The notes under the pieces are model-generated. The model made no database searches. It was not told the DNA's origin and saw nothing but the letters and a program-made list of their open reading frames with translations. From the NCBI RefSeq assembly GCF_027942295.1, contig NZ_CP101416.1, positions 4,574,501 through 4,638,500 on the forward strand: a stretch of DNA of 64,000 nt, in the 5' to 3' direction. Every line of letters begins with the position of its first letter. Within the stretch, counting starts at the first letter, position 1. Both the position numbers and the translations under genes were made by a program. This document shows positions 5,058 to 47,978 of this stretch, in pieces. The stretch comes from Pseudanabaena sp. Chao 1811 (GTDB taxonomy: Bacteria; Cyanobacteriota; Cyanobacteriia; Pseudanabaenales; Pseudanabaenaceae).

Positions 5058-8000
5058 ATGTTCACTTCTGTGCCACCGATCGCAACATTATCTAGTAGAC
5101 GTATCATTCCCGAAAATCTACAGGGTCGGGTCTTAATGAAGTTGGTCTATGTAGTGCTGGAACCTCAATATCAGAGCGCTATGTCGGCGGCTGTAAAGTC
5201 CATTAATAAAAACAACCCCAACCTAGCGATCGAGGTAAGTGGTTATTTAATTGAGGAACTTCGTAGTCCAGAAAATTACGAGGTTTTTAAAGAAGATATT
5301 GCTGAGGCGGATATTTTTATCGCGTCTTTGATTTTTATTGATGATCTTGCTACGAAAATTGCTCAAGCAGTTGCACCCCATCGCGATCGCTTGTCTGCTT
5401 GCGTCGTATTCCCATCGATGCCAGAGGTAATGCGCCTCAATAAAATGGGCAGCTTTAGTATGGAAAACCTAGGGCAATCTAAGAGTGCGATCGCCCAGTT
5501 TATGCGGAAGCGTAAGGAGAAATCGGGCAGTTCTTTCCAAGACAGTATGCTCAAGGTCGTGCAGACTCTGCCGAAGATTCTCAAATATATGCCTATTGAT
5601 AAGGCGCAGGATGCTCGTAACTTCATGTTGAGCTTCCAATATTGGTTAGGAGGTTCGACAGAAAATATTGAAAACTTCCTATTGATGCTTGCTCAAAATT
5701 ATTTGCCTAGCGTGAAGGCAAGAGCAAAAGAAAATGGTGCGGCTCCTCTAATTATTAAAGACCCTGTTACCTATTTGGACATGGGGCTATGGCATCCTCT
5801 CGCACCGAAAATGTTCGAGAATACTACCGAATATTTGGATTGGTATAATGCCCGTACCGATATTCCCGATGACATGAAAGATCCCCTTGCACCTTGCGTG
5901 GGTCTATTGATGGCACGTACTCACCTCGTTACAGGCGATGACGCGCATTATGTGGCGATGGTTCAGGAATTGGAATCCCTCGGCGCTAGGGTTATTTCCG
6001 TATTTAATGGGGGCTTAGACTTCTCAAAGGCGGTCGAAGAGTATTTCTATGATCCTAAGCAAAAGGATCGAGCGATTGTGGATAGTGTTGTCTCCCTGAC
6101 TGGTTTTGCTCTTGTTGGAGGACCCGCAAAGCAAGATCACCCCAAGGCGATCGAAGCTCTCGAAAAACTGAATCGTCCCTACATGGTAGCCCTGCCCCTA
6201 GTCTTCCAAACTACCGAAGAATGGCAAGATAGCGATCTTGGTTTACATCCTGTACAAGTTGCCCTTCAGGTTGCCTTACCTGAACTCGATGGCGGACTTG
6301 ATCCTATTGTGCTTTCGGGGCGCGATAGCATGACTGGTCGTTCCCATGCTTTAGGCGATCGCCTCGAAACCATCGCCAACCGTGCGATCAAATGGGCAAA
6401 TCTCCGCCGCAAGCCTCGCCATGAGAAGAAACTGGCGATTACCATCTTCAGTTTCCCTCCTGATAAGGGCAATATCGGAACTGCCGCCTATTTAGATGTA
6501 TTCTCTTCCATTCATAAGGTTGTAGAAGCTCTCGGTAATAATGGCTATGACGTTCAAGGATTACCGAAGACATCCCACGATATGATGTCCGAGATTCTGC
6601 ATAACCCTGAAGCAATGGTTGGCAGTCCTGAACTCAACGTTGCCTATAAGATGTCTGTACCTGAGTATGAAGCCCATACTCCCTACGTCGATCGCATTAT
6701 CGAGCAATGGGGACCTGCGCCCGGACATCTCAATTCCGATGGACAGAACTTGATTATTTACGGTAAGCAGTACGGAAATATTTTCGTAGGCGTACAACCC
6801 ACCTTCGGTTATGAAGGCGACCCCATGCGCTTGCTCTTTAGCAAATCCGCTTCACCCCATCATGGCTTCGTTGCTTATTACACCTATCTCAACCATATCT
6901 GGGGAGCCGATGCTGTCCTCCACTTCGGTACTCACGGCTCAATGGAGTTCATGCCTGGGAAGCAAGTGGGTATGTCTGGAGATTGCTATCCCGACAGCTT
7001 GATCGGAGCGCTACCCAACATCTATTACTACGCCGTAAACAACCCCTCAGAAGCCACGATCGCTAAGCGTCGCGGTTATGCCACCATCATCAGCTACATC
7101 ACTCCTGCGCCCGAAAATGCAGGCTTGAGCCGTAACTTGCAAGAACTGAGTGAATTGATTGCGTCCTACAAGGATCTCCGCCTCGGTGGTCGTGGTGTCC
7201 AAATCACCAATACAATCATGGACAAGGTGCGCTTGGTCAATCTCGATAAGGATGTGGAACTTCCAGACCAAGATGCCAAGGATATGTCCCTTGAGGAACG
7301 CGATAACGTCATCGGTCAGGTTTACAACAAGCTGATGGAAATCGAGTCCCGCGTTCTCCCTTGCGGTCTGCACGTTGTTGGTGAACCTCCCAAAGTGGAA
7401 GATGTCACCGATGTGTTGACCAGCATCGCCAGTTTTGATCGCCCCGAAGACAACATGAAGTCTCTGTTGCGAATCATCTGTGAAAGCATCGGACGCGATA
7501 TCGAACAGCTTTACAAATCCAGCGACAAGGGTATTTACGCCGATGTGGAACTCTTGGCAAACATTCGGGCGATCGCCAATAAAGCTGTAGGCGCATTGGT
7601 CAAGGCAAAGGCTGATGACGATGGCAGAGTTTCCAAACTCTCGGTTCTCAACTTCTTTAGAATGGGTAAAACTGAGCCTTGGATTGAAGTTTTCCAAGAG
7701 AATGGCTATCCCAATGTTAATAAAGATGACATCAAACCTCTCTTTGAATTCCTAGAGTTCTGTCTCAAGCAAATTGTTGCTGACAACGAACTCGGCGGCT
7801 TGATCAAAGCTCTGGAAGGCGATTACATCACCCCCAGTCCCGGTGGAGACCCCATCCGTAATCCCTTAGTGCTGCCCACTGGCAAGAATATGCACGCACT
7901 CGATCCTAACTCGATTCCTACGAGTGCGGCAGTGCAAGCGGCTAAAACTGTAGTCGATCGCCTCTTAGAGCGTCAACGTCAAGACAACAATGGAGTCTAT

Positions 8001-25131: not shown

Positions 25132-26136
25132 AACGTGAGTTCGACGAACTAAAAGATGGCAGGAGGAAGAGCAGGCAAGCCTTTAGGCTGAAGATCTAAA
25201 GCAGGTTTAGACTGGCGATAGGTATAGGCAACTAAGCCAGCAAGAAGATTAACGAGAAAATTGAAAAAGCTGCGATGACGAGAATGCTCAATCTGAGAAA
25301 TGTTCTTGAGTTGGTCATTGACGGACTCAATAATTGCGCGCTTGCAAAGCAGAATTTTGTCAATCAACTTGACCAGACAGTTTTTCATATTTTTCTTGCG
25401 CTTGGTAATCAGTTGCAAACCTTGTTCATAGAGCTTTTCAAACAACTTTTGGGAGATATAACCACGGTCACCAAACAATTGACCAAAGAGGTCTTGAGCC
25501 ATCTCAGGCACAGGTTCACGGTCATCGACATTGGCTGGTGTGAGTTTGAAAGCAAGCAATTCCCCTTTGTCATTAATAATCAAATGTAGTTTGAAACCAA
25601 AGTGCCATCCGACTGAGTTTTTGCCCCAATTGACCATTCCTTTAAATACTTTGTGAGCGTGGGCGTGGCAAGGGACACAGACATTTATTGGCGTGGAGTC
25701 AATGAATGATATCCCTGTCACTTCTCCTTTACGGGTATGGAGAAAGCAACATAACAACATCATTGTCCAAGGCATTAGCTCGACAAAACGGGTGTAGCTT
25801 ACTAAGTGCGGAAAAGCTTTTCGCCAAAACGGTATTACAGTTAGGGTATAGAACTCTTTGAAGGTTTTATATCCTGACCCATGAAAGGCGATCTCTATCG
25901 TCATCACTTCACTCAGTCTCATTCTGGAACGACTTTTTCTTTCTCCTATCATTGATGGCAACATTGGTTGCTCTTCCCAGTGTTTTTCAAAACTTTGGCA
26001 AAAATCATCTACTTCACAGAAGATTCGTGTGATATCTAAGTGCGATACGATATTGTTCATATTGCTGAGACCTTTTTTGCTTCAAACCTAGTCTCAGCTT
26101 TTCTTTTGCTTCTGTCTACTCCGTCGAACTCACGTT
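25132..26136. mobile_element. IS982-type insertion sequence
   Basis: The element is about 1005 bases with perfect 15-bp terminal inverted repeats: AACGTGAGTTCGACG at 25132-25146 and its complement at 26122-26136. It encodes one intact transposase on the minus strand that fills almost the whole length. I could not find a convincing target duplication: the flanks read TATAAATC on the left and AATATGG on the right. It therefore may have lost the duplication or have moved by rearrangement. The IS end sequence recurs alone at 44521-44533 and, with changes, next to other repeats. Confidence 0.85.
25149..26060 (-). CDS. IS982-family DDE transposase
   Basis: The transposase is 303 residues, about the normal length. 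The likely catalytic triad is Asp121 (GISFIDSTPINVC), Asp198 (FGDRGYIS) and Glu245 (CKRAIIESVNDQLKN). The N-terminal part contains the family block RLSEVMTIEIAFHGSGYKTFKEFY. It cuts and rejoins the IS ends to move the element. No frameshift or stop interrupts the gene, so it may still be active. It lies inside the inverted repeats at 25132 and 26136. Confidence 0.9.
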   Translation of the reverse strand: MNNIVSHLDITRIFCEVDDFCQSFEKHWEEQPMLPSMIGERKSRSRMRLSEVMTIEIAFHGSGYKTFKEFYTLTVIPFWRKAFPHLVSYTRFVELMPWTMMLLCCFLHTRKGEVTGISFIDSTPINVCVPCHAHAHKVFKGMVNWGKNSVGWHFGFKLHLIINDKGELLAFKLTPANVDDREPVPEMAQDLFGQLFGDRGYISQKLFEKLYEQGLQLITKRKKNMKNCLVKLIDKILLCKRAIIESVNDQLKNISQIEHSRHRSFFNFLVNLLAGLVAYTYRQSKPALDLQPKGLPALPPAIF

Positions 26137-26185: not shown

Positions 26186-26287
26186 AGGAGGATTGGTGGT
26201 GATAGGTAACAAAAGTTCTGGAAGGCGATTATGTAGTAGAAATAGGATTGTAACGATTTCTTGATATTGGACTGTAATGCTTATTCG

Positions 26288-27811
26288 CTAAAGTTCATAA
26301 GTCATTGCTAGAGAAAAAATCGCTCTAAGAGAGAAGAGATAACCATTAAGCAAATCATCGTACCCACCATCCCCACTACCTTTATAAAATCTCAACATCT
26401 TTGGAAAGCTTGCTAGAAGAGAATCTTGTGTATTTTTTGTGTCATTAATAAATTCAGTATGCGTCCTCCAGTTGTCTCTTTGTGGATGATACCAACCAAC
26501 TTTTGACGCAAATTTTTTAAACACCTTATGATCAAATTTGCCGATTTCGCCGCCACAGTCTAGCCAGAGCTTTTTCTGAATGCTAAAGCCAAACTTGCTA
26601 TTACTGTAATGCACCCACAACTGATCGATCGTCCGCAAATCTTCGCAAGGGAAAGCCTCAATCTTCTCACTATCTAGACAACCCTCTTTTTCCCGATAAG
26701 CAAACTGATGTATCAATTTAGCAGTCAGTTCATCCGCTTTGCGCCATTCCTGCGACTTTAGCAATTTCTCCAACTCACGATAATCAATCCCCTTCGCACT
26801 CACCAATTCTACAGGATTTTTCTTGACCTCTGGAACAGGCGGCGCTACAGATTTTTTACTACCCTGATCGCTAAATCTTTCCTTTAATTGCGAATTAGGA
26901 ATAGATTGCTTATTAGCCAAACGCTGAAAAGCATTAATCACCTTTATATCCGTTCCACCAGATGCCACATTTATCCGCATCCATAACTGAAAAGCCAGAG
27001 TAAAATCTTCTTCAATTTCCGCTTGGAGCGCATGTTCTCTTAGTAAAGCAATATCAGTAAGATTGGCAAACTTCGGCAACAGAATGTAATGCAACTTAGT
27101 TTCAGGTTCAACCACAACGTAAGGAGTTTGTGCATAATTCTTGTACCTTTGCGTCAACTTTGGTACACGAAATTTCAAATAATTAGCAAAACGTTCTACT
27201 GTCGCACAATTCCCCTCACCCTGAATCCGCAAAGCCTCCAGCAACACATTTGTAAAAGCCCCTTGCCCAATCTCATCAATCTCATAGGAAACCTGTGACG
27301 GACTACAAGAAAAGAACGTGATTACACCTTGCTGCTTCTCCTCACCGATGCCCATACCTGCATTCTTCGCACCATCACTGCGACAAGCATCGATCAACAT
27401 CACCACATTGTCCGCCCCACTCCGCCGCAAACGATCTGTAATACTTGACAAGGGAATTGTTGTCTTGGAAGCAATGCTGAGACTGAAATCAATTGGCAAA
27501 AGGCAATCTCTGCCTTCATAGGGCATTCCATGACCGCTAAAGTAGAACCACAGCGTATCACCTGACTCTAGGAATGGAGTTTCAAAACTTTCCGTAAAAA
27601 AAGTTTCAAGATTGCTGTAGGTTGGTTGGGTATCCCTGCCCCAAACATCGCATGGAGAATCGTCAGAAAAAAAGTACAAATTTTCAGGGCTAACCTGCAA
27701 ATCCTGCATGAAAAAATCACGCATCTTCTCAGCATCGCTTTTGGCATACTTTAGAGGCTGGATTTTTTTGTAATTATTAATCCCGACGACCACCGCGAAA
27801 TTTCTTGCCAT
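26288..27811 (-). CDS. Caspase-like (metacaspase) protein with C-terminal GUN4 domain
   Basis: The 507-residue protein begins with a peptidase C14 caspase fold (1 to about 245). The His/Cys dyad is H94 in LWFYFSGHGMP and C143 in VMLIDACRSDG, and ITFFSCSPSQVSYE and GQGAFTNVLLEAL complete the fold. A helical linker (about 250-335) leads to a GUN4 domain (about 344-500): YRELEKLLKSQEWRKADELT, FPCEDLRTIDQLW and FGFSIQKKLWLDCGG. GUN4 proteins bind protoporphyrin IX and Mg-protoporphyrin and activate ChlH. The combination suggests a protease controlled by a tetrapyrrole- or partner-binding module. It lies four bases after the Trypco1 gene in one operon. All catalytic residues are present, so it should be an active Arg/Lys-type or related protease; the substrate is unknown. 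Confidence 0.9.
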   Translation of the reverse strand: MARNFAVVVGINNYKKIQPLKYAKSDAEKMRDFFMQDLQVSPENLYFFSDDSPCDVWGRDTQPTYSNLETFFTESFETPFLESGDTLWFYFSGHGMPYEGRDCLLPIDFSLSIASKTTIPLSSITDRLRRSGADNVVMLIDACRSDGAKNAGMGIGEEKQQGVITFFSCSPSQVSYEIDEIGQGAFTNVLLEALRIQGEGNCATVERFANYLKFRVPKLTQRYKNYAQTPYVVVEPETKLHYILLPKFANLTDIALLREHALQAEIEEDFTLAFQLWMRINVASGGTDIKVINAFQRLANKQSIPNSQLKERFSDQGSKKSVAPPVPEVKKNPVELVSAKGIDYRELEKLLKSQEWRKADELTAKLIHQFAYREKEGCLDSEKIEAFPCEDLRTIDQLWVHYSNSKFGFSIQKKLWLDCGGEIGKFDHKVFKKFASKVGWYHPQRDNWRTHTEFINDTKNTQDSLLASFPKMLRFYKGSGDGGYDDLLNGYLFSLRAIFSLAMTYEL

Positions 27812-27815
27812 ACCT

Positions 27816-28226
27816 TTAAACAGACTCCGAAGGCTGAGATTTTTTAGGTAACTCTGCTCGCTTAAATTTTAACTCGATCGCCCCTTTTCCAGAGGTTTCA
27901 ATCCCCGTACCCAAGAGCTTAATTTCACCCTTAGCAGAAATGTCAACCGCCAATTTGATCTCATCTAGTTGTAGCCCTGCTTGGGGATCAATTTGTTTTT
28001 GAGCATCAGCAAAGACTCGACCAATCACCCGCACAAACTGGGACATCTGCGCCGCCAAGTTCTCCGCTTTCACCCGACTTTCTTTAATCGCTTCCCCTGA
28101 TACTGTTGCTGCTGAGCGTGGGTTAGCGGGACTGAAAGCAACTGTCTTTTGCCCAGATTGAGATTCTTGGCGATCGCTAGCGGTCACGATCCACAGTTCC
28201 TCATCACTCCAATCTTGTTCCTGCAT
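27816..28226 (-). CDS. Trypco1 (CU044_2847-type) domain protein
   Basis: The protein is 136 residues from ATG 28226, chosen because GAGG precedes it at good spacing; a TTG at 28256 would add ten residues. The C-terminal half has the block QAGLQLDEIKLAVDISAKGEIKLLGTGIETSGKGAIELKFKR (split here: LDEIKLAVDISAKG then GIELKFKR-type ending), the beta-strand pattern of the trypsin-co-occurring domain 1. These small domains are found next to peptidases in bacterial conflict systems and are thought to regulate or be targeted by them. The stop is four bases before the caspase-GUN4 start, so the pair is translationally close and probably a functional module. Confidence 0.75.
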   Translation of the reverse strand: MQEQDWSDEELWIVTASDRQESQSGQKTVAFSPANPRSAATVSGEAIKESRVKAENLAAQMSQFVRVIGRVFADAQKQIDPQAGLQLDEIKLAVDISAKGEIKLLGTGIETSGKGAIELKFKRAELPKKSQPSESV

Positions 28227-38153: not shown

Positions 38154-40421
38154 ATGACTCAAGAACCAGAAAAACCATCTCGACTGCGAAAATTTTTAAG
38201 TTTTTCATCGTTAGGCATTACTGGTAGTGCATTTATCAATTATTTGATTAAGCAAGACTGGGTAATGGCAGCGATCGCACTAACTTGTTTTGTCTTGGCG
38301 GCGATTTTGGGGATTTTCTGGGCTTATGTCAAAAACTTTTTGGAACGACTAAAAGAAAAGTTAGCAGAGAAAGGGGCTGAGGATGCCGATCGTTTTTTAG
38401 AAGGGATGGAACATTTGCGAGAAAAGTTAGCGGCAAAATCATCACAACAGGAAGCTTTAAAGGAAGTTGTCTCTCAACTATCTGATTTTGAGTCAAAATA
38501 TCTCGAAGAGCAAAAACTTACCTGCCATGAAGATCGGGCAATTGGCATTAGAGAGATCGAAGGATTTGATAACTATCCTGTCTTACAGGAGATCTTTGTC
38601 CCTTTGCGTTTGACGATTAGTGCAAGGGATGCAGGCTATGATCGTCCCGAATCCTTAGAAGATTACAAGACTACCCAAATTTGGGATTTACTACGCAATA
38701 GTCAAAACAGACCAAAACTAAAACAAATCGCGATTCATGCTTGGGGCGGATTTGGTAAAACTACGCTTTTAAAGCATCTCTCATTTATTTACAGCGCTCG
38801 CGCCTATGGCAAATATAACGCGCCGAAGTTCATTCCCTTTTTAGTTTATTTAGCAGATTGTTATCTGACTCTCTCGCAAGATAATCCGCCAAGCTTGCCA
38901 GAATTTTTAACCAATGATCACGTTAATAAATTGCTGGAAGATCAAGAGCTAGTCGCGCCGCCAGATTGGGTGTTGAACTTGCTTAGAGAAGGTCAAGCAT
39001 TGGTGATGTTTGATGGTTTTGATGAAATACCAATTTCGGAAAGAGCAAAGGTCAGTGAGTGGCTAAGTGCGGCGATGCAGAAATATCGCAATTCGGTTTT
39101 TATCATCACTTCGCGTCCAACTGCCTATCGCGAAAACTATACTGCTCAGAAGCCATCATCAAGTTTTTGGATTGAGAAATTTAATCAGGAACAACGTCAA
39201 AAGTTTGTCGAGCAGTGGTATCTCTGCCAAGAAATCATGGCTAGGGGTGGTCGTTCTGGCAAAGATGTGGAACGCGCCGCTAAAAACAAAGCAAAGTCTC
39301 TCTTAGCGCAAATTAAGGAACGTCCAGAACTAGATGCGATCGCAGGTAATGCACTCTTGTTAAATATGATGGTGCGCTACCATCGGGATGAGCTAGGCGC
39401 AGAGCTACCAAAGCGCAAGGTGGAGCTATATCAAGGCATTTGTGAGTTACAGCTAAACCGCAGACCGAGTTTAAGAAAAATTGAATTATTACTCAAATCG
39501 ACAAATCAGCGTCAAGAGGTGCTGCAATTTGTGGCGCTAGAAATGATGAAACGGGCTACAAACGATCGCGAAGAGGGCTTTAAACAAATTCAACGTGATG
39601 ATTTGTTAGATAAGCTGAAGATTGGTTTGGATAAATTTGATAGTGAAGTTAATGTGGAAAAGTTTTTGGCGCAAATGGCTGATATCAGTGAGATGTTGGT
39701 TAGAAGAGACGAAAATATCTATCAGTTCTCCCATTTGAGCTTTCAAGAATTTCTAGCTGCTTCGGAACTTGTGCGTTTAAAAGAAGATGGGGAGTCTTTG
39801 TTATTTAAGAAGTTAAGCTTGAACGTATGGAAAGATACGATTTTGTTTTATGCCAGCCTGACACCAAATCCTAATAGACTCATTCAAAGGCTAGTCGATC
39901 TCGATAATCGTGACCTCGTAGATCTCATTTATCGCCAAACTAATAAGGCTGATGTTTTAAAGTCACTCGAAAAGTTAGTGATCGATAAGCGCTATGAGCA
40001 ATTAGAAACTTATCTCAAGGCGAAGGAATGGGAAAAGGCGGATCGGGAAACCGATAGATTGATGCTGAGTGCAGTCGGGAAAGAATCAAATCAATGGCTA
40101 GATGAAGATGACTTACGCAACTTTCCTTGTGATGAGCTATTGGCTATAGATCGCCTCTGGGTAAAGCATAGCAATGGACTGTATGGCTTTAGTGTCCAGA
40201 AGCAGATTTATGTCGAGTGTGGTGGTAAGCTAGATTTTAGTTTGCCAAGTTCTGAGACTTGGGATAAATTTTGCGATCGCACTGCATGGAAAAGCGAAGG
40301 TAAATGGGTGGACTATCCCGACCAATTTTTTAACGAAAATTTTATAAGTGTGAAGGGACACCTCCCTAGATGGGATGGAATATTCTTTCTCGCATCGAGA
40401 CTTGTGAAGTGTAAGGCATAA
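38154..40421 (+). CDS. Membrane-anchored NACHT NTPase with C-terminal GUN4 domain
   Basis: The 755-residue protein has an N-terminal hydrophobic region (about 16-60, AAIALTCFVLAAILGIFW) and a helical, coiled-coil-prone segment (60-125). A NACHT NTPase follows: Walker A AWGGFGKTTLL at 196-206, Walker B ALVMFDGFDEI at 282-292, a sensor-like FIITSRPTAY at 316-325, and a winged-helix end with FSHLSFQEFLAASEL at 525-539. The C-terminal GUN4 domain (about 614-755) has YEQLETYLKAKEWEKADRET, NFPCDELLAIDRLW and YGFSVQKQIYVECGG. In NLR-like proteins the C-terminus usually senses a trigger. Here that place is taken by a tetrapyrrole-binding fold. It is related in design to the caspase-GUN4 protein 10 kb away and lies next to a TA-like pair. 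Confidence 0.9.
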   Translation: MTQEPEKPSRLRKFLSFSSLGITGSAFINYLIKQDWVMAAIALTCFVLAAILGIFWAYVKNFLERLKEKLAEKGAEDADRFLEGMEHLREKLAAKSSQQEALKEVVSQLSDFESKYLEEQKLTCHEDRAIGIREIEGFDNYPVLQEIFVPLRLTISARDAGYDRPESLEDYKTTQIWDLLRNSQNRPKLKQIAIHAWGGFGKTTLLKHLSFIYSARAYGKYNAPKFIPFLVYLADCYLTLSQDNPPSLPEFLTNDHVNKLLEDQELVAPPDWVLNLLREGQALVMFDGFDEIPISERAKVSEWLSAAMQKYRNSVFIITSRPTAYRENYTAQKPSSSFWIEKFNQEQRQKFVEQWYLCQEIMARGGRSGKDVERAAKNKAKSLLAQIKERPELDAIAGNALLLNMMVRYHRDELGAELPKRKVELYQGICELQLNRRPSLRKIELLLKSTNQRQEVLQFVALEMMKRATNDREEGFKQIQRDDLLDKLKIGLDKFDSEVNVEKFLAQMADISEMLVRRDENIYQFSHLSFQEFLAASELVRLKEDGESLLFKKLSLNVWKDTILFYASLTPNPNRLIQRLVDLDNRDLVDLIYRQTNKADVLKSLEKLVIDKRYEQLETYLKAKEWEKADRETDRLMLSAVGKESNQWLDEDDLRNFPCDELLAIDRLWVKHSNGLYGFSVQKQIYVECGGKLDFSLPSSETWDKFCDRTAWKSEGKWVDYPDQFFNENFISVKGHLPRWDGIFFLASRLVKCKA

Positions 40422-40492
40422 ACGTTTCACACTTCTTTTAACTTTTGTAAACCGACATTTACCTACGACATAATGCGCCTTTCCAAGATCCG

Positions 40493-41290
40493 TTACCTGT
40501 CACCAGCCGCCTCTCCTTCATCATTGTCTTTTTCCGAAAATTTCTGGCAAGCCACCTTTGGGTCATAGCAATTTGCTATTACAAATTTTTCAGCAACTTG
40601 TCTTATCTCTCCATCGGGCTTATCCCACTCATCCCATAACGACTTCTGCCCTCGACAACCCTTTCCCGTCTTGCCCTTAATTTTTAAATTCGCCAACAAC
40701 TTCGTACCCCAATAATTTTGCCTCTCAGGTTTCGGCTTCGGCTTATATTTCTGGCAAAATTTGCGATACTTCGCTGCACAGATCTCCAACATCGCACCCA
40801 ACATTAAAAACGCAGGATGCCACTGCGTCAACCCATCATCAGTTAAGCGGTCATAGGTTCCATAATTGCTATAGTCATAAAAAAATCCCAACTGCATCCC
40901 CGCCGCCTTCGGGTTCGCATGAATATATCGCAACGTATTCAAAGCCCACCGCATATCCGTATTCGCAAACCCCGTACTGTGATATCGCTTCTCCCAGAAA
41001 TGCCCCGTGCGATTCATCATCTGGTTAAAACACATCGCTGTATACCAGTTCAGCCAATGCATGATCTTTGGTAAATTCTCTGGTTGAGAAGGTTCTATCA
41101 AATAATGAATGTGATTGCTCATGATGCACAGAGCATAGAGTTTAAACCCAAACTTGTCTTTACATTTTTGAATAGAAAAGAGCAACACCTCTCGACATTC
41201 ATCCCGAATCAATCGAAATTCGCGATTATTACACCGAACTGTAACGTGATAGCAATAGCCAGTTTTTAGTTCGCGTGGTTTTCGAGCCAT
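40493..41290 (-). CDS. REP-associated tyrosine transposase (RAYT, IS200-like)
   Basis: The 265-residue protein has the Y1 HUH transposase core. The HUH motif is H60/H62 in CIMSNHIHYLIEP. The catalytic tyrosine is probably Y122 in LRYIHANPKAAG. The N-terminus YCYHVTVRCNNREF is typical for TnpA_REP proteins. A basic C-terminal extension (about 180-230) is present. RAYT proteins cut and move REP palindromes in single-stranded form and are usually single-copy genes with their REPs nearby. Here palindromes of the right kind lie within 500 bases downstream (41313 to 41830). Confidence 0.88.
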   Translation of the reverse strand: MARKPRELKTGYCYHVTVRCNNREFRLIRDECREVLLFSIQKCKDKFGFKLYALCIMSNHIHYLIEPSQPENLPKIMHWLNWYTAMCFNQMMNRTGHFWEKRYHSTGFANTDMRWALNTLRYIHANPKAAGMQLGFFYDYSNYGTYDRLTDDGLTQWHPAFLMLGAMLEICAAKYRKFCQKYKPKPKPERQNYWGTKLLANLKIKGKTGKGCRGQKSLWDEWDKPDGEIRQVAEKFVIANCYDPKVACQKFSEKDNDEGEAAGDR

Positions 41291-44533: not shown

Positions 44534-44732
44534 TTTTTACGCGATTACTGGAGGTACATAAAAACTTATTCTGAGATGGTCTCGACATATCTGTAAGGCT
44601 TTTAAGCTATAATGGCAGAGTGTTTTTGAATCTTTACTCAAAAAACACCTTAAAACACCATCAAGAGCGCTTGTAAAGTTTTTCTTTAAAGCCCCCTTGA
44701 AGACGACATAATTTCTGGAGTTGTTTACCTTC

Positions 44733-47700
44733 ATGCCTGAGATCGTTACAGAAACTTATAATGCCAATCAGATCCAAGTACTAGAAGGTCTAGAAGCAGT
44801 TCGTAAGCGACCTGGGATGTATATCGGTACAACAGGACCAAAAGGATTACATCACCTTGTTTTTGAAGTCGTTGACAACAGCGTTGATGAAGCCCTTGCA
44901 GGACATTGCGATCGCATTTTAGTTGAGCTTTTACCCGATGGCTCCGTACAGGTCTCCGATAATGGACGCGGCATCCCAACCGATACTCATCCGAAAACTG
45001 GAAAATCTGCCCTCGAAACCGTACTCACCGTTCTCCATGCAGGTGGAAAGTTCGGCGATGGTGGTTACAAAGTATCAGGTGGCTTACATGGTGTCGGTAT
45101 TTCTGTAGTTAATGCCCTCTCCGAATGGGTAGAGGTCTCCGTATGGCGACTAGAAAAAGTCTATAAGCAACGATATGAAAGGGGCTTTCCTGTCACAGAA
45201 TTAATCGCTAGCCCAAGCGAAGAAGCTCAACCCCGACGAGGTACACAGGTACGTTTCAAGCCTGATTCGCAAATTTTTACCACCCAAACTGAATTTGAAT
45301 ACGATATTCTCGCGAGCCGACTCAAAGAGCTTGCCTACCTCAATGCTGGCGTAAAAATTGAATTTTGCGATCGCCGAGGTGAAGAACTTCGCACCGATAT
45401 CTATTGTTATGAAGGTGGTATTCGCGAATATGTCGCCTACATGACTCGCGACAAAGAACCTATTCACCCTGACATTATCTATGTAAATGGTGAACGCGAT
45501 AACGTTGTTGTTGAAGTCGCATTGCAATGGTGTATTGATTCCTACAATGACAACGTTCTTGGCTTTGCGAATAACATCCGCACAATTGACGGTGGAACTC
45601 ACTTAGAAGGACTGAAAACCGTTCTTACGCGCACGATGAATGCTACGGCTCGGAGACTCAAAAAGATCAAAGAGGGCGAATCAAATCTCGCTGGGGAAAA
45701 TGTCCGAGAAGGTTTAACGGCAGTAATTTCCGTTAAGGTTACTGATCCAGAATTTGAAGGTCAAACTAAAACTAAGCTAGGTAATACGGAAGTACGCGGT
45801 ATTGTTGATTCCTTCGTTGGTGAAGTTCTCAATGAATATCTAGAGTTCCATCCTGCGGTTGCTACTTCAATTATCGAAAAAGCACTACAAGCTTTTAATG
45901 CGGCTGAAGCTGCCCGTCGCGCCCGTGAACTAGTTCGACGCAAATCTGCTTTGGAGTCTTCCACTTTACCGGGAAAGCTTGCCGACTGTAGTTCTCGCGA
46001 TCCCAAAGAATCCGAAATCTTCATTGTTGAGGGAGACTCCGCAGGCGGCTGTTTTGATGGTGATACCCTCGTTGCCCTAGTAGACGGACGCAATATTAGT
46101 TTCAAGCAATTGGTAGAAGAAGAAAAGGCTGGTAAGCAAAACTTCTGTTACACGATTCGTAACGATGGCACGATTGGAGTTGAGCAGATTATCAATGCCA
46201 GAATTACTAAGCGAAATGCAGAGGTAATTCGTGTCACTTTAGATAATGGTGAGCAGCTAGTTTGTACACCTGATCATCCTTTCATGCTTCGCGATCGCAC
46301 TTACAAAGCCGCCGCCGAACTCGCGGTTGATGATTCATTAATGCCTCTCTATCGCAGGCTGTCTAGTAAAGCTGATAAGAGCATCACCATCGATGGATAT
46401 GAAATGGTATGGAATCCCAAATCCGATGGCTGGTTATTCACGCACGTGATCGCAGATTGGTATAACCGTTATCAAGGTGTTTACCAAGTCGAAGATGGGG
46501 ATCATTGTCATCATGTTGATTTTAATAAACTGAATAATAATCCAACTAATCTCCAACGTTTGCCAAAGTTAGATCATTTGCAATTGCATCAAGTTCACAT
46601 TGCCCAAACCTTACATCGTCCTGAAGTCATCGAAAAATGCCGTCAATTAAAAACTACGGAAGAATTTCGCGATCGCATGAGTCAGAGAATGCAAGAACCT
46701 GCAACTAGAGAAATTCTCTCGCAACAGGCAAAGGCACAGTGGGAAGATGCCGATTACAAAGCCTATATGACTGCGAAGTGGCGTGAATTTTATGAGAGCA
46801 ATCCTGATTATCAAACACAAAATCAGCAGCAGTTAGATCGGTCTCAGCGAGAATATTGGAGTAATCCTGAACATCGTCAGCAGCAATCTACAAGAACAAA
46901 AGAATTTTTTGCCCAAAACCCTGAAGCAAGACAACGCTTATCAGAAATTGCACAGCAACAATGGCAAAATCCTGATCTGATCGATTGGCGACGTGTAAAA
47001 ACTCAAGAGCAATGGACAGATACCTTTAGAGCAAAACGTAAGGCTGCTTTACAACAAACCTATTACCGCAAAACCTTAGCTGCTCTTAAGCAGATTGCAG
47101 TTGAGAATGGTTGTCTTGATTTAGATGCCTATCGTGCTTATCGCATTGATACTCGCGATAAATCTCTACTCAAGTTTGAGACATTTTGCGATCGCTATTT
47201 TGAAGGTAATTCCGAACTTGCAGTTGAGGCAGTTACTAATTACAATCATCGCATTGTCAAGGTTGAGAAACTAAGCGAGCGTATTGATGTTTATGACATC
47301 GAAGTGCCAAATAGCCACAATTTTGCCCTTGCTAGTGGTGTATTTGTACATAACAGTGCTAAGCAAGGACGCGATCGCCATTATCAAGCAATCCTGCCAT
47401 TGCGCGGTAAAGTTCTCAATATCGAGCGAGCCGATGATAGCAAGATCTATAAAAACAATGAAATCCAAGCCTTAATTACAGGCTGTGGTCTTGGTATTAA
47501 AGGTGAAGACTTTAACGAAGCCCAACTTCGCTATCACAAAATTATCTTGCTGGCTGATGCGGATGTGGATGGAGCGCACATTCGGACATTGCTCTTGACC
47601 TTCTTCTATCGCTATCAAAGAGAACTACTCGATCGCGGCTTTATCTATATCGGTTGTCCTCCACTCTATAAGGTGGAGCGCGGTAAAAACCATACCTATT

Positions 47701-47978
47701 GCTATACCGATCGCGATTTGCAGGAGCTAATAGCTTCTTTCCCTCCTAATGCCAACTACAGCATTCAGCGCTTCAAAGGTTTAGGTGAAATGATGCCGCA
47801 ACAGCTATGGGAAACGACCATGAACCCTGCCACGCGATCGCTGAAACGTCTCACCATTGAAGATGCTGCGGAAGCTGATCGGATCTTCACAATCTTAATG
47901 GGTGATAAAGTTGCCCCACGCCGCGAATTTATTGAGACCTATGGCTCAAAATTAGGACTTGCAGATCTAGATATCTAA
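44733..47978 (+). CDS. gyrB: DNA gyrase subunit B with in-frame intein
   Basis: GyrB is the ATPase subunit of gyrase. ATG 44733 (MPEIVTETYNANQIQVLEG...) is chosen; GGAG at 44717-44720 is 12 bases upstream. The precursor is 1081 residues; removing the 435-residue intein leaves 646, the normal GyrB size. N-terminal GHKL motifs are VDNSVDEALAG, DNGRGIP and GGLHGVGISVVNAL. The Toprim part has EGDSAGG before the intein and SAKQGRDRHYQAILPLRGK after it, then DADVDGAHIRTLLLTFF. The intein interrupts the catalytic EGDSAGG|SAKQ loop, so the enzyme is inactive until splicing. Two hairpins follow at 47977-48045. Confidence 0.97.
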   Translation: MPEIVTETYNANQIQVLEGLEAVRKRPGMYIGTTGPKGLHHLVFEVVDNSVDEALAGHCDRILVELLPDGSVQVSDNGRGIPTDTHPKTGKSALETVLTVLHAGGKFGDGGYKVSGGLHGVGISVVNALSEWVEVSVWRLEKVYKQRYERGFPVTELIASPSEEAQPRRGTQVRFKPDSQIFTTQTEFEYDILASRLKELAYLNAGVKIEFCDRRGEELRTDIYCYEGGIREYVAYMTRDKEPIHPDIIYVNGERDNVVVEVALQWCIDSYNDNVLGFANNIRTIDGGTHLEGLKTVLTRTMNATARRLKKIKEGESNLAGENVREGLTAVISVKVTDPEFEGQTKTKLGNTEVRGIVDSFVGEVLNEYLEFHPAVATSIIEKALQAFNAAEAARRARELVRRKSALESSTLPGKLADCSSRDPKESEIFIVEGDSAGGCFDGDTLVALVDGRNISFKQLVEEEKAGKQNFCYTIRNDGTIGVEQIINARITKRNAEVIRVTLDNGEQLVCTPDHPFMLRDRTYKAAAELAVDDSLMPLYRRLSSKADKSITIDGYEMVWNPKSDGWLFTHVIADWYNRYQGVYQVEDGDHCHHVDFNKLNNNPTNLQRLPKLDHLQLHQVHIAQTLHRPEVIEKCRQLKTTEEFRDRMSQRMQEPATREILSQQAKAQWEDADYKAYMTAKWREFYESNPDYQTQNQQQLDRSQREYWSNPEHRQQQSTRTKEFFAQNPEARQRLSEIAQQQWQNPDLIDWRRVKTQEQWTDTFRAKRKAALQQTYYRKTLAALKQIAVENGCLDLDAYRAYRIDTRDKSLLKFETFCDRYFEGNSELAVEAVTNYNHRIVKVEKLSERIDVYDIEVPNSHNFALASGVFVHNSAKQGRDRHYQAILPLRGKVLNIERADDSKIYKNNEIQALITGCGLGIKGEDFNEAQLRYHKIILLADADVDGAHIRTLLLTFFYRYQRELLDRGFIYIGCPPLYKVERGKNHTYCYTDRDLQELIASFPPNANYSIQRFKGLGEMMPQQLWETTMNPATRSLKRLTIEDAAEADRIFTILMGDKVAPRREFIETYGSKLGLADLDI
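46050..47354 (+). other. GyrB intein with HNH homing endonuclease
   Basis: The intein starts at Cys (codon 46050) in CFDGDTLVALVDG and ends with VFVHN (last codon 47352-47354); the extein residue after it is Ser. Block B is CTPDHPFMLRDRTY (TxxH), and block F/G is IDVYDIEVPNSHNFALASGVFVHN (in two parts: IDVYDIEVPNSHNFALASG and VFVHN). The middle carries an HNH nuclease: HCHHVDFNKLNNNPTNLQRL. The length of 435 residues and the insertion site match, from memory, the GyrB intein of Synechocystis. All splice residues are present, so it should splice, and the nuclease looks complete. Confidence 0.93.

Follow-up and report, generated by a model that had tools for sequence, protein, structure and literature searches.

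Effector-fused GUN4 domains of cyanobacteria carry a hypervariable loop followed by a three-frame DNA tail

What does a GUN4 domain do at the end of a caspase? The question is raised by one gene in the 64,000-nucleotide stretch of Pseudanabaena sp. Chao 1811 DNA analysed here (hereafter the window), which the initial annotation read, together with its small upstream neighbour, as a tetrapyrrole-linked suicide module. The fusion itself has been known since at least 2010 (PMC2853523), and in the accessible text of the reports on cyanobacterial caspase-GUN4 orthocaspases and metacaspases (PMC2853523, PMC5756287, PMC8283722) the domain architecture is the same as that of the window protein, with 29 of 473 orthocaspases carrying GUN4 (PMC8283722). 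That text makes no mention of a Pepco partner, a hypervariable loop, a three-frame tail or a Y1 neighbour. The interest of the locus lies in the loop and in its DNA tail, since the architecture is already known.

The Pepco-caspase module

The module occupies the following positions of the window.

26288..27811 (-): caspase-GUN4 protein, 507 aa
27110..27805 (-): Peptidase_C14 (caspase) domain, residues 3-234, dyad H94/C143 (Pfam, E 3e-25)
26435..26800 (-): GUN4 domain core, residues 338-459, matching positions 2-116 of the 141 in the profile (Pfam PF05419, E 3e-33)
27816..28226 (-): Pepco gene (PF24393), 136 aa, constant partner of the caspase (Pfam, E 2.6e-26)

Domain searches bear out both Peptidase_C14 and GUN4 for this protein. 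Its predicted structure shows a caspase fold matching MALT1 and metacaspases (Foldseek), and the dyad originally proposed, H94 and C143, is correct, with both residues invariant across 10 homologues. The GUN4 part matches the solved GUN4 structures 1z3x and 1y6i with E values of 2e-17 (2.5e-17) and 4e-15, respectively (phmmer). The description of the GUN4 core motifs as intact holds for profile positions 2-116 of 141, but not for the C-terminal part, where the tetrapyrrole-binding LxNxLR is absent and a hypervariable loop is found instead. The PADLOC model PDLC04062 (PD-T4-6) also matches 26288-27811, through the GUN4 part; kinase-less GUN4 proteins could therefore be wrongly labelled PD-T4-6. 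Two other ORFs of the window were recognised by eye only: a transposase-like ORF just 3' of the caspase-GUN4 gene (25149-26060, -) and a GyrB-like ORF of 1085 aa with a long intein-like insertion (44721-47978, +).

The small gene ends four bases before the caspase start, as first described, but it is not the Trypco1 gene that it had been taken for. Its product covers the full Pepco profile (1-112), Trypco1 (PF19493) found no match in it up to E = 1 in the Pfam search, and Trypco1 was rejected as the caspase partner; elsewhere in the window genome, Trypco1 scores just 0.0037, on a Pepco-GUN4 paralogue. The predicted Pepco model (pLDDT 72) had no match in the PDB. At another locus of this genome (L082, G000:C1:3522000-3535000; 5371-7162, -), a GUN4 domain appears to be divided between two neighbouring genes: one encodes its N-terminal half, fused behind Pepco, and the other its C-terminal half, which ends an Hpt-like protein.

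With Pepco as the partner, the conserved linkage between small gene and caspase is upheld by a survey of gene neighbourhoods. Pepco is present in 17 of 146 cyanobacterial genomes, where a caspase lies directly 3' of 19 of the 21 Pepco ORFs; conversely, Pepco stands upstream at all 12 caspase loci tested from the same genus or family (L371-L382) and at 19 of 20 caspase homologue loci overall. The 19 Pepco-linked caspases end in different modules, namely FGE-sulfatase (12), GUN4 (5, the window's included), an nSTAND NTPase (1) and RDD (1). Pepco and the caspase are therefore the constant part of the module and the C-terminal domain is exchangeable. In the EACC1-caspase/EAD systems (Kaur et al., 2020, PMC7159879), too, a small gene that stays constant precedes a caspase whose C-terminal domain can be exchanged, and, as with GUN4 here, one domain occurs on both a NACHT protein and an effector of the same genome. 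They differ in that Pepco replaces EACC1 and in that GUN4 is not listed as an EAD.

In one genome (G008), the commonest module on this core is the target of a diversity-generating retroelement (DGR): a template repeat aligns with the FGE-sulfatase end of the Pepco-caspase gene, and 15 of the 16 mismatches between template and variable region fall at template A.

L204:6733-6865 and L070:9426-9558: template repeat of the DGR and its distant variable region, the latter the FGE-sulfatase end of the Pepco-caspase gene

The FGE-sulfatase module thus belongs to a known kind of hypervariable recognition domain. DGR-diversified C-type-lectin (FGE-sulfatase) proteins also carry a C-terminal hypervariable module on kinases, caspases, TIR and similar proteins (PMC7517822, PMC7159879). 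They follow the same logic as the GUN4 loops described below and share the Pepco-caspase core. GUN4-like domains have been noted on DGR variable proteins by Vallota-Eastman et al. (PMC7517822), as accessory domains and not as the variable part.

The GUN4 loop and the DNA behind it

Two genes of the window, 10 kb apart, carry the features that concern us here.

26340..26401 (-): loop segment of caspase-GUN4, 62 nt, after a degenerate GHLP (here ASFP), at the bilin-binding-loop position of ChlH-type GUN4 (alignment of 106 GUN4 domains)
26280..26339 (-): remains of a three-frame tail element, decayed (local alignment score 37.5)
38154..40421 (+): NACHT-GUN4 protein, 755 aa, a STAND-type NTPase with effector-type GUN4 (Pfam NACHT 1e-13, GUN4 2e-33)
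40368..40383 (+): short variable loop of NACHT-GUN4, 16 nt, after GHLP
40384..40430 (+): NACHT-GUN4 tail element, hairpin TCTCG-CAT-CGAGA, read in one of the three used frames

The alignment comprised 31 ChlH-type and 75 effector-type domains. In the ChlH-type domains (n=31), GHLP is followed by a near-invariant LSNQLRGVR, which includes the bilin-binding LxNxLR. At the same position the effector-type domains (n=75) vary in length and reach an entropy of 3.5-4.0 bits, against about 0 bits in the orthologues, and this loop is flanked by the conserved GHLP and LxSR. Pairs of close effector-type domains have cores that are 92-94% identical and loops that are unrelated. The predicted full-length structure of the window protein has a pLDDT below 50 for residues 440-506 and is uninformative for the loop, which we infer to be exposed.

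Such domains are fused to many kinds of protein. A census of 67 GUN4 proteins counted 35 with kinases, nine with caspases, five with trypsins, five with NACHT and two with TIR. The window genome has eight GUN4 domains in total: the ChlH-type domain, caspase-GUN4, NACHT-GUN4, two kinase-GUN4, RNase III-GUN4, an AAA-WD40-GUN4-FGE-sulfatase protein and a Pepco-GUN4 fusion. Within this one genome, GUN4 is shared by a core NTPase (NACHT) and by effectors, namely the caspase, the kinases and RNase III. GUN4 genes are clustered at L120 (G002:C1:2033000-2052000), L121, L124 and L125, where some proteins also contain two or three GUN4 domains in tandem, every domain with a loop of its own.

Loop lengths range from 15 to 154 nt. 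The 126 distinct loops consist of about 70% G+T, with equal composition at all three codon positions, unlike the core, and they contain eight stops in the used frame compared with 116 and 140 in the other two and 131 in shuffles; 121 of the 126 are open where 51 would be expected. A flat composition, combined with avoidance of stops in the used frame only, suggests that the loop DNA is random-looking and that the surviving loops have been selected for translation. Substantial likeness between loops was found for one pair only. When donors for 27 loops were sought in their own genomes (15, several of them draft), only the loops themselves were returned above chance, and shuffling of cassettes or gene conversion was rejected on these whole-genome searches.

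How loops change can be seen where the surrounding DNA has been conserved. Among 24 pairs of loci with similar flanks, some of them paralogues within a genus, three have an identical loop and 21 have unrelated loops, so that replacement looks episodic and complete. For L208 and L305 the flanks are 91% identical, both in the 1411 nt before the loop and in the 794 nt after it, and longer flanks also confirm synteny for L331/L337 and L279/L300. These changes are seen between species and not within a strain. Copies of the 5' flank (GGACACCTCCC) occur within some loops and might come from errors made at a broken end.

Directly behind the loop lies an element that is conserved as DNA, TCTTCTCTCGC[G/A]TCGAGACTTGTAAACTGTAACATATAAG. 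It is read in all three frames, as LLSRRDL*, LFSRVETCKL* or SLASRLVNCNI*, and has a TAA in every one of them; across 131 loops, the three frames are used 39, 59 and 33 times. Tails read in different frames are as similar to each other (identity 0.87-0.90) as those read in the same frame (0.86-0.92), whereas wobble sites of a conserved core motif reach only 0.43-0.80. The tail includes a hairpin, TCTCG-CRT-CGAGA, with a CT-rich side.

Tails were found in 16 of 18 genomes, in which a control with the reversed pattern gave none. Among the 166 unique tails, a GUN4 GxLP can be recognised ahead of 144, and a GUN4 domain detected by HMM precedes about 10 more; of the remainder, about half are at contig ends and a few are unexplained. 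None of the 31 ChlH-type GUN4 genes has a tail, with scores there at shuffle level. An exact 22-mer of the tail occurs in at least 115 stretches and, among the matches listed, all 80 records are cyanobacterial. Two plasmid records have weaker copies, and the one examined is also behind a GUN4 domain. The exact pattern was absent from viral contigs, and a viral origin of the tail was rejected.

The two genes of the window differ in the state of their tails. NACHT-GUN4 has a live-looking one, with TCTCGCATCGAGACTTGT at 40388-40405 (+). The relic behind caspase-GUN4 aligns with a score of 37.5, where the best of 500 shuffles reached 34.0 and their mean was 20.8. The loops of its same-genus orthologues are nearly all different and unrelated to the window loop, except that of L383, the closest relative (86%), which has the same loop and a decayed tail. 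With its tail decayed, the caspase-GUN4 gene of the window has thus probably ceased to change its loop, as a frozen member of a family that diversifies.

The Y1 gene and alternative explanations

The NACHT-GUN4 gene is followed, after 71 nt, by a convergent gene that may be relevant to the origin of the loops.

40493..41290 (-): Y1/HUH transposase-like (TnpA_REP-like) gene, candidate diversifying nuclease (Pfam Y1_Tnp PF01797, E 2e-18)

The HUH and Y motifs are present in its product, and NHxHYL and YIHANP are conserved. The Y1 family is clearly enriched beside tails, and no other gene family is: for 37 of 151 tails, the 2 kb downstream contain the gene or its remnants, convergent in all 37 cases, whereas none of 71 upstream control stretches does (tblastn). 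A search of 27 genomes gave 14 matches to the family, most of them adjoining GUN4 genes. These matches came from just 10 of the 27 genomes, as against tails in 16 of 18, and Y1 may therefore act rarely, have been lost in places or be just a passenger. The related enzyme TnpA_REP cleaves hairpins of single-stranded DNA at C|T (PMC8266576). With TnpA_REP/RAYT and the Y1 enzymes of IS200/IS605 (PMC8266576, PMC6006769), the system shares a Y1_Tnp domain with HUH and Y motifs, a single-strand hairpin next to the gene and a CT-rich context. It differs in that CTTC (CAAG when read on the opposite strand) precedes the hairpin in the tail consensus, and not the GTAG guide of known REPs, and in that the tail is tied to the 3' ends of GUN4 coding genes, whereas REPs are dispersed. 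Y1 is possibly the enzyme of loop replacement; the support for this is circumstantial, as many tail-bearing genomes lack the gene.

The same neighbours could be explained by decoration with a mobile element, in which the tail would be the end of an IS200/REPtron-like Y1 element inserted behind GUN4, the loops functionless scars of insertion and excision, and the C-terminus dispensable. The Y1 genes or remnants beside 37 tails and the tail hairpin, such as Y1 elements have, would agree with this, as would one pair of loci (L256/L343) that share 99.8% identity over the 507 nt following the tail and about 85% in the gene body upstream of the loop, a possible recent exchange with its breakpoint at the loop. 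Against it, the loops are kept free of stops in the used frame only and the tail has stops in all three frames; nearly all tails lie behind GUN4 and are not scattered as mobile elements are, and the loops have no source in the genomes searched. We consider this explanation unlikely.

Still less can be said for a tetrapyrrole sensor, in which GUN4 would bind protoporphyrin, Mg-protoporphyrin or bilin and control the caspase allosterically, so that photosynthetic status gates death. Kaur et al., 2020 had already proposed tetrapyrrole sensing and allostery (PMC7159879), and the homology to GUN4 is clear, as is the fusion of GUN4 to many signalling enzymes. LxNxLR is needed for bilin binding and an independent report found all paralogues to be without it (PMC10156173). 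Given that this motif is likewise missing from the window GUN4 and the other effector-type domains of our alignment, that the profile match ends before the C-terminal pocket, that a fixed pigment pocket would hardly tolerate hypervariable sequence and random length at this position, that a branch with 100/100 support parts 74 effector-type from 31 ChlH-type rows of the tree, and that FGE-sulfatase is the commoner module on the Pepco-caspase core, a role for this GUN4 in sensing pigments is not supported, and we set the explanation aside as very doubtful. The two GUN4 domains of the window share one cluster of that tree, with weak support (83/80). The original suggestion that GUN4 serves as sensor or adaptor may stand in its broad sense, but not for a pigment.

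Ordinary fast divergence would require a disordered and unconstrained C-terminus, changing by point mutation and indels, with the tail a conserved RNA or terminator element. The C-terminus is indeed of low predicted order and the tail has a small hairpin. Against this, loops are replaced all or none between loci whose flanks are about 91% identical or more, their composition is G/T-rich and blind to codons, and stops in them are selected against. A known RNA family or terminator was rejected as the tail: there is no Rfam family at the tails of 15 loci, and no U-run 3' of the hairpin. We give this explanation little credence.

Diversification of the GUN4 loop by a DGR or another templated retroelement is hardly credible, even though a DGR does target the sister module, FGE-sulfatase, and most genomes checked have reverse transcriptases, for the loops are random in length where DGR variable regions keep that of the template, no donor was found for them in 15 genomes, the window genome (G000) has no RVT_1 match, and a comparison of eight reverse transcriptase loci of seven genomes (L198-L205) with the GUN4 loci of the same genomes matched only FGE-sulfatase regions to template repeats, which led us to reject a DGR as generator. 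DGRs have a template, a reverse transcriptase, fixed length and adenine mutagenesis; for GUN4 loops we find no template, random length, a G/T bias and a three-frame tail.

A proposed recognition receptor

The reading that we favour, with a probability of roughly 0.6, is that the GUN4-derived domain is the scaffold of a hypervariable recognition receptor on the caspase of a Pepco-caspase module, its loop being replaced without an apparent template, possibly by Y1. For the family, the diversity of the loops and the DNA element behind them are observed; the generator, the ligand and the killing are proposed from them as follows. The scaffold would present a hypervariable loop, in logic akin to an antibody CDR3. 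Replacement would begin at the tail hairpin, where single-stranded DNA may be cut by the neighbouring Y1/HUH enzyme, followed by untemplated synthesis and rejoining, and lineages would retain those loops that are open and useful. A ligand bound by the loop, from phage or another non-self molecule, would then release or cluster the caspase, in a manner modelled on the FGE-sulfatase modules, which are thought to work likewise. Pepco could be an activator, an inhibitor or a substrate, and may hold or activate the caspase. The outcome would be protective cell death or shutdown. In the window, the caspase-GUN4 loop is probably frozen and NACHT-GUN4 retains both its tail and the Y1 gene. A weak hint only comes from a phage-resistant Nostoc substrain, in which a GUN4-Ser/Thr kinase gene is among three mutated genes (PMC10811720).

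A wider conjecture, against which we would still put the odds, is that cyanobacteria possess a V(D)J-like system. A domesticated HUH/Y1 enzyme acting at the hairpin, together with untemplated G/T-rich synthesis, would replace a CDR3-like GUN4 loop that controls kinases, caspases, trypsins, TIR and NACHT proteins, and the stops in three frames would complete the protein at any loop length. Like the N-regions of V(D)J recombination, GUN4 loops are untemplated-looking, G-rich and variable in length between conserved flanks, next to a hairpin element and a transposase-related gene; in both, all frames arise and open ones are selected. In contrast, the GUN4 system is non-homologous, bacterial and apparently evolutionary rather than somatic, with a candidate HUH/Y1 enzyme in place of RAG and GUN4 in place of the immunoglobulin scaffold.

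The literature searched, with preprints and most subscription papers outside it, held nothing on GUN4 hypervariability, and novelty is not certain. Untemplated receptor loops of random length have, to our knowledge and within that literature, been described only for vertebrate antigen receptors. If our reading is true, bacteria too would write random-length receptor loops with no template to copy, and the question raised is which enzyme writes them. A domain annotated for some twenty years as a pigment-signalling module would, when fused to effectors, be a hypervariable immune-type receptor family, and its tetrapyrrole-sensor annotations would need correcting. The loops would also offer a testable route to the triggers of cyanobacterial caspases.
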